From: an uncultured Rubritalea sp.
GTDB lineage: Bacteria; Verrucomicrobiota; Verrucomicrobiia; Verrucomicrobiales; Akkermansiaceae
Reading direction: 5' to 3'
Length of the DNA stretch: 64,000 bases
Assembly: GCA_937923145.1 (NCBI GenBank)
Contig: CALAJT010000015.1
Span: 110,892-174,891 of the forward strand
Below the pieces are notes generated by a model, which saw only the letters and a list, made by a program, of their open reading frames with translations, made no database searches and had not been told where the DNA came from. Positions 58,269 to 63,803 of the stretch are shown one piece after another. Position numbers and translations under genes: made by a program. Position 1 is the first letter of the stretch; the number at the start of each line of letters is the position of its first letter.

Positions 58269-58838
58269 ATGAAAACACTAACATTACTACTATCAACTAT
58301 ACTTCTTTCAGCCTCAGCCTCAGCCTCAGCCTCAGCCTCAGCAATTGCAGATATAAAAGAAGATTATAAAGAAATCAAAAAGCAGGAAAAGACGGCTACT
58401 AAGGCATATAATGACATTCGCTATGGACCAGAATTCGATAAAGAAGGTGAGTATGCAAAGGCTGATGCAGAATATATGAAAGCTGCTAAGAACTGGAAAA
58501 AAGTTCGTGAAGAACACCCAGTGTTAAAGAAATTTGCCGAAGATGAAAAGCGCTATATTGAAGAAATGGCAAAACTCAAACGCGGAAGCGAAGAATTTAA
58601 TAAGCTGGAAAAAGAATACAGAGCGCACTGGGCGGCTCTCAGTAAAGCAAGTGCACAACTCCCAGAGCTTCAGCTGGCAAGAAAAAACATGGATGCCACG
58701 GCTCTAGAGTTGAAAGCTGTAGAGAAGCGTCTATTAGAAGCAAATCCTGCAGCGATGGAGGCATTGAAAAAAAAGAAGGAAATAATTAAAAAGCGCAAAG
58801 AACTCAGAAAAAAAATCAAAGCCCACGGTAAATCTTAA
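58269..58838 (+). CDS. Secreted lysine/glutamate-rich coiled-coil protein
   Basis: After a signal peptide whose end is a Ser-Ala repeat (six SA dipeptides, about residues 14-25) the 189-residue protein is almost entirely charged helix: Lys, Glu and Ala rich, with heptad-like spacing (AKADAEYMKAAKNWKKVREE). A coiled coil is likely. The C-terminus is basic (KKKKEIIKKRKELRKKIK). No enzyme motif is seen. The hexanucleotide repeat that codes for the SA run is listed separately. The function is unknown. Confidence 0.7.
   Translation: MKTLTLLLSTILLSASASASASASAIADIKEDYKEIKKQEKTATKAYNDIRYGPEFDKEGEYAKADAEYMKAAKNWKKVREEHPVLKKFAEDEKRYIEEMAKLKRGSEEFNKLEKEYRAHWAALSKASAQLPELQLARKNMDATALELKAVEKRLLEANPAAMEALKKKKEIIKKRKELRKKIKAHGKS
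58308..58343 (+). repeat. TCAGCC hexanucleotide repeat within a signal peptide
   Basis: Five exact tandem copies of TCAGCC followed by one TCAGCA encode (Ser-Ala)6. Slippage would change the length in steps of two residues without breaking the frame. Confidence 0.9.
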
Positions 58839-59771: not shown

Positions 59772-60167
59772 ATGAATAACTACTTATCTCAAATCTTCGT
59801 CGTCTTCACCGTATTCCTCGCGGTAGCGACATCAGCATTCGGTCAAGAAACATGTAAGCCAGCTGAGAAGATTATGGCTGAACTGGAAAAGCCTTCACTG
59901 ACGTTCTATTATTTCGATCAATGACCCATGTGCAACAAGATTAAGGTCATCGTGAATGATCTGAAGAAGACACAAGGAAAGGAAGTTACTTTTAAAAATA
60001 TCGCCGTATCAGCAGATACTAACGAGGAAATTAAAAAGGCAAAACTACAAGGTCACGGAATCATCGCTAAAGACAAAGAGGGGAAAATAGTTCAGATATT
60101 GAGCGGTCATAGCTATGACGCAAAAGCAGTCAAAGCAATCGTGACCAAGCTACTTGAGGAAGAGTAG
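59772..60167 (+). CDS. Secreted thioredoxin-like protein, candidate selenoprotein (in-frame TGA)
   Basis: One frame of 131 residues runs from a signal peptide (1-25, ATSAFGQ) through TGA at codon 51 (59922-59924) to the stop at 60167. The TGA is followed by CCC ATG TGC, so if read as selenocysteine the motif is U-P-M-C, which would replace the first Cys of a thioredoxin CxxC after the strand LTFYYFDQ. The rest (CNKIKVIVNDLKK, then a strand and SGHSYDAKAVKAIV) fits a thioredoxin fold. The TGA is followed by C, the weakest stop context. A hairpin downstream is listed separately. If translation stopped at the TGA the product would be a non-functional 50-mer. No sel genes are in the window. Confidence 0.65.
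59944..59962 (+). promoter_or_regulatory. SECIS-like hairpin downstream of the in-frame TGA
   Basis: AGGTCAT (59944-59950) and ATGATCT (59956-59962) form a 7-bp stem (one G-T pair) with loop CGTGA. The loop starts 26 bases after the TGA and has G as its second base, within the 16-37 base spacing and loop rule of bacterial SECIS elements. An 'A' opposite 'G' below the stem and two further A-T pairs extend it. Confidence 0.5.
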
Positions 60168-60247: not shown

Positions 60248-60279
60248 AAATCCCAAGCTGCGATAGCAACTTGGGATTA
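60248..60279 (-). terminator. Intrinsic terminator of the Lys-rich secreted protein gene
   Basis: On the minus strand ATCCCAAG and CTTGGGAT with an inner GC pair set form a hairpin followed by TTTTTT. It lies about 60 bases beyond the stop codon at 60341. It could also weakly serve the plus-strand gene ending at 60167. Confidence 0.8.
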
Positions 60280-60340: not shown

Positions 60341-60910
60341 TTATTTCTTTGACTTGAAGTGTTTTACGATAGCGGAAAACTTCTTTTGGCCAATGCCTGT
60401 AACATTTCCAAGGTCTGTAACATCTTTGTAAGGACGAGCCTTTTTGATCAGAGCAATTGTTTTTTCACCAAGTCCAGGGACTTTGATTAAATCAGCGCTT
60501 GTGCCTTTATTGAATGTGTTGAGCATTGATTTCCTTTGCGATGAAGAGAGAGTTGCAGCAGATTTTTTATTTGCAGCTGCAGTTTTTGGATCAGCTACTG
60601 TAATTCCCTTAGTAGTGGTAGTTTTTTGATTAGTAGAGTTAGGAGTTGTTTTCTTAACTTCCTTTTTAGCTGTAGTAGGAGTAGTTTTTTTAACTTCTTT
60701 CTTAGCTTTAGTAGGAGCAGTTTTCTTAACTACTTTCTTAGCTTTAGTAGGAGTTGTTTTCTTAACTACTTTCTTAGCTTTGGTAGGAGTCGTCTTCTTA
60801 ACCACTTTCTTAGTTTTAGTAGGAGTTGCTTTTTTGTTTTCCTTTGCCTGTAGTGGTAATAATGTGAAAGACAGTACGATAATAGCTGATAATGTTTTGG
60901 TAATACTCAT
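60341..60910 (-). CDS. Secreted Lys-rich repeat protein with ComEA-like helix-hairpin-helix end
   Basis: A signal peptide (1-22, LLPLQAKE) is followed by about five or six 12-residue repeats of the type KKVVKKTTPTKA (about residues 35-100), a histone-H1-like Lys/Thr/Pro-rich tail. The last 65 residues form a tandem helix-hairpin-helix domain (KVPGLGEKTIALIKKARPY and NVTGIGQKKFSAIVKHF) like ComEA, the periplasmic DNA receptor for transformation. Both halves would bind DNA outside the inner membrane. It stands alone; the comEC gene is not here. It could alternatively coat extracellular DNA. Confidence 0.75.
   Translation of the reverse strand: MSITKTLSAIIVLSFTLLPLQAKENKKATPTKTKKVVKKTTPTKAKKVVKKTTPTKAKKVVKKTAPTKAKKEVKKTTPTTAKKEVKKTTPNSTNQKTTTTKGITVADPKTAAANKKSAATLSSSQRKSMLNTFNKGTSADLIKVPGLGEKTIALIKKARPYKDVTDLGNVTGIGQKKFSAIVKHFKSKK
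60645..60840 (-). repeat. Tandem 36-bp repeats coding for Lys-rich protein repeats
   Basis: Five or six imperfect copies of a 36-bp unit (on the plus strand TTCTTAACTACTTTCTTAGC, then TTTAGTAGGAGTTGTT) encode the repeated protein motif. Several copies are nearly identical, so the number can change by recombination. Confidence 0.8.
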
Positions 60911-62780: not shown

Positions 62781-63803
62781 ATGATTGATTTATCTTCATC
62801 CGTATTAAAAATCCGAGTCATCCTTCCTCACTACCGCCATTCTCAGCGATTCTTCAGAGAGCAAACTGTAGAACTCAGCCGCAAAACCATCAACGGATGG
62901 GTGCATCAAATAGCCCAACATCTAGCACCTATAGCAGAAGCGATAGGCGCAGAACTACGCGGCTCAGACCTCCTCCAGATAGACGAAACACCCATGCACT
63001 ACCTCATTCCCGGATCAGGAAAAGCACACACAGGATACCTCTGGGTCATGCGAGATCCACAGACCGGAGCAGTCTATTACCAATGGCAAAAAGGTCGTTC
63101 AGCCCGAGACCTCATGGAGACATTAGGCTACGATGAAAAAACCAAACAACTAGCCTTTAAAGGCACCATCCAGTGCGACGGCTACATCTGCTACCAAACT
63201 ATAATGAATGCCTACGAAGGTATCGTCCTTGGAGCCTGTCTCGCCCACATTCGGCGCAAATTTATAGATGATAAAAGCCTACGGCAGATCCCCTGGGTAG
63301 CCTATTTACTACGATCGATCAAAGTCCTCTATCGGATAGAACGGCGACTGCGAAACACTTCAGCGCCACCAGACCTATGTCAGAGAAAAAGGCGATCCTA
63401 CGCCAAACCCATCATAGAAAAACTGCACAGGAACCTAACCAAAGAACTACCTCAGCATCGTCCATCGAGCAGCTGTGGTAAGGCGGTCAAGTATGCACTT
63501 AATCAATGGTCGCAATTTATCCTCTACCTAGAAGATGGTCGCCTGCCGATAGATAACAACGGAGCAGAAAACGCCATTCGTCCCTGTAAACTAGGCCTGA
63601 AGAACTATATGTTCTTTGGCAGCCTAGAAGCAGGAGCAAACAACGCCATCCTCTACACACTTATTGAGAACTGCAAAGCAGCTGGGCTCAATCCCCGAGC
63701 CTACTTAGAACATATACTCGAAAATCTTGGCCGCCAGCCAGCAGAGGACTTAACCCCAGGGAAAGTCGCCAAGCTCTGGAAAAAATCAGAAGAAGCTGCT
63801 TAG
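62781..63803 (+). pseudogene. IS66-type transposase (TnpC), N-terminally truncated
   Basis: The frame encodes 340 residues covering the DDE domain: LQIDETPMHYLIPGSG has the first Asp, QCDGYICYQTI the second and NNGAENAIRPCKLG the Glu. HTGYLWVMRDPQTGAVYYQW and ACLAHIRRKF are further IS66 landmarks. Full TnpC has about 500 residues; the N-terminal leucine-zipper and zinc regions are missing, and the first 10-15 residues have no similarity. It is unlikely to transpose alone but the catalytic residues are intact. It is framed by inverted repeats. Confidence 0.85.

Follow-up and report, generated by a model that had tools for sequence, protein, structure and literature searches.

The 64-kb window, the whole stretch of DNA analysed here, encodes a small helix-hairpin-helix (HhH) protein that we read as a variant of the ComEA-type exported DNA binders, DNA binding being the part that we infer from sequence. 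The protein is probably an exported DNA binder. The overall explanation that we favour, tentatively, is of an exported binder without sequence specificity, most likely retaining pilus-imported DNA for ComEC; a specific role in DNA uptake, taken by itself, is possible, if somewhat doubtful. The joining of a signal peptide and Lys-rich repeats to tandem HhH motifs, which the original prediction had called unusual, is not confined to this protein: a family with members across the Verrucomicrobiales usually takes this form. That family is patchy and apparently undescribed, and our search of the full-text literature found no description of it.

The 189-codon ORF begins with ATG and has exactly the coordinates given in the original prediction (Table 1). 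The 13-pair intrinsic terminator that follows makes this the last gene of its transcription unit, which converges on the adjacent gene. An Rfam scan over the gene region gave zero matches above threshold. The host genome is 2.7 Mb in size and 92% complete, with the window on contig 15; the named records closest to the HhH protein are two MAGs labelled Akkermansiaceae, so that the host probably belongs to this family of the Verrucomicrobiales or is closely related to it. An IS66-family transposase lies close to the contig end (window 62781-63803). Elsewhere in the window, a TCAGCC six-base repeat (5.8 copies, 100% identical, 58308-58342) falls within the signal peptide of the ORF at 58269-58838, where it encodes SASASASASA, possibly a signal peptide of variable length.

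Table 1. Features of the HhH gene and its protein, in window coordinates.
Feature	Position	Strand	Basis
Gene, 189-aa exported HhH protein	60341..60910	-	ORF list; relatives with matching layout
Signal peptide, residues 1-22 (MSITKTLSAIIVLSFTLLPLQA)	60845..60910	-	By-eye reading; recurs among relatives
Lys-rich, probably disordered tail, residues 23-110, net charge ~+28, computed pI ~10.7	60581..60844	-	Composition
36-bp tandem repeat array, unit AKKVVKKTTPTK, 5.4 copies	60640..60833	-	Tandem Repeats Finder and unit-by-unit reading
Extra helix N-terminal to HhH pair (LSSSQRKSMLNTFNKG), residues 121-136	60503..60550	-	Family alignment, model, KIF22 alignment
First HhH motif, hairpin PGLGEKTIALIKK, residues 139-158	60437..60496	-	Pfam HHH/HHH_3; G-h-G conserved
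Second HhH motif, hairpin VTGIGQKKFSAIVKHF, residues 165-185	60356..60418	-	Pfam HHH_3; G-h-G in 24/24
Intrinsic terminator directly 3' of gene: 13-pair stem, 4-nt loop, T run	60249..60278	-	1 found against 0.7 expected in shuffles

Just downstream of the HhH gene, on the plus strand at 59773-60167, lies an ORF for an exported thioredoxin-like protein with an in-frame TGA at 59922-59924, which replaces the first Cys of the CxxC motif (U-P-M-C). Ten matches were found in 98 genomes, the window's included, each with one in-frame TGA, and the seven that were aligned (the window's and six others) have a common U-P-[ML]-C site. A near-invariant hairpin, GGTCAT-cgtga-ATGATC, stands about 20 nt 3' of the TGA and is supported by conservation, not covariation; the genome also encodes SelB (285 bits, cut-off 242). 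This looks, from its sequence features, like a genuine conserved selenoprotein family, whose gene ordinary gene callers would split at the TGA.

The HhH protein begins with a signal peptide that we read by eye as MSITKTLSAIIVLSFTLLPLQA with the cut before KE, signal peptides having been called throughout by reading, without a trained predictor. Signal-peptide-like starts of very different sequence, with a basic start, a hydrophobic core and an A-x-A-like cut site, are found in nearly all relatives, which bears out the predicted signal peptide. Such starts, in the protein and its relatives, would supply the extracytoplasmic placement by secretion signal or anchor that is expected of a ComEA.

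The tandem HhH likewise stood up to examination: the protein matches Pfam HHH_3 at 29.1 bits (cut-off 27) with G-h-G intact in both hairpins, and these glycines are near-invariant across the family (22-24 of 24 members). The family profile aligns with the solved ComEA structures (2duy, E=1.4e-13; 8dss, 1.9e-12; 8dfk, 1.6e-8), lending support at the level of fold to the ComEA-like domain that had been proposed, and with human KIF22 (2edu, E=3.2e-10), in the latter case over positions 11-72 with the pre-HhH helix included. Structure prediction, for which three sequences were the input, gave one confident model of five; in that model (mean pLDDT 85) a loop without a connector helix joins the two HhH motifs, as in ComEA. 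Foldseek ranked KIF22 and TEFM as the nearest folds, then Thermus ComEA, with PsbU lower, none of them reaching E=0.001. The scores of the protein fall far below the cut-offs of the curated ComEA models (TIGR01259, 24.7 bits against 152; TIGR00426, 17.7 against 53). ComEA has a conserved DNA-contact lysine following its first hairpin (K164 in B. subtilis), which is essential for DNA binding (PMC9747964); K or R occupies this position in 18 of 24 family members, and Thr replaces it in the window protein and four close relatives, the Thermus ComEA-related protein also lacking this lysine.

We found a family member in at least 28 of 98 Verrucomicrobiales genomes, nearly all with a signal peptide; 27 of these genomes came from a single-sequence search of the 98 relatives and reading of the matches, and one more was read later. 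The family consensus is xAxAKxxAxxLTxxQxxxLLxxLNxGxxAxLxxxPGIGExxAxAIxKARPxxxVxDLxxVxGIGExTFxxIV. In a 388-genome sample of the phylum, full-length matches to the 78-column domain model (E ~1e-30) occurred only within the Verrucomicrobiales, while outside the order essentially just the HhH half was matched, in larger proteins; the number of candidates scored in each genome was limited, so that rare distant members may have escaped this search. A plasmid collection searched by protein yielded no match. One member from a different family of Verrucomicrobiales (L076/L008 in genome G077) nests within the window's clade on the tree, with a contig G+C of 55% against 41%, pointing to horizontal transfer or to an error in contig assignment.

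The comEC and pilus genes for which the original prediction had recommended a search are present. The genome has genes for a ComEC-like protein (61.8 bits to ComEC_N-term, cut-off 36.5; 94 to the ComEC_Rec2 equivalog, under its cut-off of 190), PilT/PilU-type ATPases (two of them about 4 kb from comEC), PilB, PilC, two Amuc_1098-type secretins and DprA, so that the type IV pilus, ComEC and DprA that accompany a ComEA occur together. Among the HHH_3 matches that were read in this genome the HhH protein is the sole stand-alone ComEA-like candidate, the others being Tex and an exported nuclease whose HhH is degenerate; a looser search (E<=0.01) gave five matches, two of them weak and outside those read. 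The nuclease is staphylococcal-nuclease-like (G000 contig C36:47734-47904; L003, L108) with the degenerate HhH at its C-terminus, and an exported nuclease-HhH layout with good HhH domains recurs in relatives (L030, L032, L120). Because pilus genes, ComEC and DprA are present and no other stand-alone ComEA-like candidate was found among the matches read, a ComEA-like, DNA-retaining role in the periplasm is plausible.

Linkage gives no such indication. ComEC is on contig C17 and the HhH gene on C15 with no com gene nearby, and all-against-all BLASTP across 22 loci revealed no conserved neighbour shared in place, one ATPase-like cluster recurring at scattered distances. In the window genome's own family the gene occurs in only 6 of 60 genomes, whereas ComEC is found in 93 of the 98 of the whole set, and in three genomes (G072, G079 and G085) a family member coexists with a membrane-anchored ComEA-like protein. 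The earlier proposal that the protein gathers DNA in the periplasm or at the cell surface is therefore sustained in part: export and a DNA-binding fold are supported, but the absence of com linkage, the Thr in place of the key lysine, the rarity relative to ComEC and the separate anchored proteins make DNA uptake just one of several readings. Together with the low curated scores, the same observations are the reason that we do not claim membership of ComEA.

The patchy distribution, uncoupled from ComEC, would also suit an exported DNA binder that acts outside transformation, coating or bundling extracellular DNA at the surface or in a biofilm, or concentrating DNA as a nutrient. The anchored ComEA-like proteins alongside it in those three genomes are in keeping with this, as are the exported nuclease with its HhH-like end in the same genome and the nuclease-HhH proteins of relatives. 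We nevertheless consider it rather unlikely, since we saw no sign of passage through the outer membrane, found no linked biofilm or adhesion genes and read no other stand-alone ComEA candidate in the protein's own genome.

In the window protein the tail precedes the domain. Its repeat array (period 36, 87% matches) scores 281 in Tandem Repeats Finder, the second-best array in the window scoring only 70, and each unit is 12 amino acids of Lys/Thr character. At the protein level the array reads as one degenerate unit followed by TKKVVKKTTPTK, AKKVVKKTTPTK, AKKVVKKTAPTK, AKKEVKKTTPTT and AKKEVKKTTPNS; of the five or six near-identical repeats first described, five clear units thus remain, the 36-bp units being 87% alike, and six near-identical ones do not. 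The polybasic character that had been noted is supported by composition: the tail of about 90 residues is 32% Lys with a net charge near +28, and the most basic 90-residue stretch (net +27, 30 Lys) among 106 ORFs, drawn from the window and seven further stretches of the same genome, lies in this protein.

The tail sequence turns over fast and is replaced between closest relatives: the repeat unit is absent from the closest relative (G010), which has KTTTTPK-type sequence instead and a domain 87.5% identical to that of the window protein. Basic character is kept in almost every member read. In the window's clade the basic tail is N-terminal only (net +14 to +36), with a domain charge of +10 in the window protein and of +6 to +8 in the remaining members; in the other families basic segments mostly flank the domain on both sides and are weaker, and the domain is neutral or acidic in many members. 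The members in G068 and G092 lack a Lys tail, which makes it a typical but not a universal feature.

Another exported protein of the genome, an RlpA-like lipoprotein named by eye (L106:17276-17806, minus strand), has its signal peptide followed by a Lys/Ser/Pro-rich linker, and the tail of the HhH protein may accordingly serve in envelope binding. On this reading the tail would bind envelope polyanions or peptidoglycan and the HhH would be a protein-protein module with no DNA role, as in PsbU, an exported HhH domain with another function; the weak PsbU matches and the missing ComEA lysine fit it. It is improbable, however, for the ComEA and KIF22 profile matches (1e-13 and 3e-10) are far stronger than that to PsbU (about 5e-3), the hairpins retain their glycines and, in the window's clade, the domain is very basic. 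A cytoplasmic histone-like nucleoid protein whose N-terminus merely resembles a signal peptide is very improbable indeed, despite a composition reminiscent of histone H1 tails and of the Lys-rich nucleoid proteins of bacteria, given the signal-peptide-like starts of differing sequence in nearly all relatives and given that no histone-like family in Pfam, Hc1/Hc2 included, was matched.

If the protein is the exported DNA binder that we favour, it would be delivered to the periplasm by Sec through its signal peptide, cut after LQA, and the tandem HhH domain would grip the DNA backbone through hairpin contacts. As a flexible polycation, the long Lys/Thr tail would add affinity and bridge or partly condense the DNA, and DNA pulled through the outer membrane by type IV pili could be held and kept from slipping back until ComEC takes over. 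The analogy is with the diffusible ComEA of Gram-negative bacteria, the tail contributing retention or condensation, for which B. subtilis ComEA has its oligomerization domain; a lone HhH domain could naturally acquire retention or bridging from a flexible polycationic tail whose length changes. A bolder form of the idea, which we regard as unlikely, is a lineage-specific 'periplasmic histone' whose fast-evolving polycationic tail condenses extracytoplasmic DNA, replacing the oligomerization domain, beside an ordinary ComEA.

Natural transformation seems little studied in the Verrucomicrobiota, and a full-text literature search found nothing on ComEA of this phylum. Periplasmic DNA binding by the protein, if true, would open a way into the study of DNA uptake in a group that is large and of ecological importance, and would mean that DNA can be retained or condensed by a disordered polycation in place of an oligomerization domain. 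ComEA-driven DNA condensation reportedly powers uptake, and natural ComEA-type variants with different tails would make a useful test of condensation-driven uptake.

Among known systems, an Hc1/Hc2-type histone H1-like nucleoid protein was considered and rejected, there being no Pfam match and a signal peptide being present. PsbU, the 12-kDa extrinsic protein of photosystem II, is also an exported HhH domain without other parts, but it has no Lys tail, serves in photosystem II and is matched only weakly (Pfam score 14.4 bits, below the cut-off of 24.5), so we do not place the protein there. The C-terminal HhH of chromokinesin KIF22 (2edu) and the N-terminal domain of TEFM (5ol9) share the pre-HhH helix and the LLxxLNxGsxxDL pattern, although they are eukaryotic, intracellular and parts of larger proteins. 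The membrane-anchored ComEA-like proteins of relatives (G072, G076, G079, G085 and G097) have the ComEA-type tandem HhH and presumably face the periplasm; they differ in having a transmembrane anchor and neither Lys tail nor pre-HhH helix. Gram-negative ComEA consists of a signal peptide and a lone HhH domain and acts as a ratchet in the periplasm (PMC9747964, PMC3879209). Like ComEA/ComE of V. cholerae and N. gonorrhoeae, the window protein is small and presumably diffusible, with a signal peptide and tandem HhH and with type IV pilus genes and ComEC in its genome; it differs in its extra 90-residue Lys-rich tail and pre-HhH helix, in lacking the key lysine, in scoring far under the curated cut-offs and in being unlinked to com genes. 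Geobacillus ComEA reversibly condenses DNA and the length of its disordered linker tunes this behaviour (PMC13168374). Compared with the B. subtilis and Geobacillus proteins (8dss, 8dfk), the window protein lacks both a transmembrane anchor and an oligomerization domain; it has in common with them the HhH domain (profile E=1.9e-12) and a disordered segment ahead of it, which here is polybasic.
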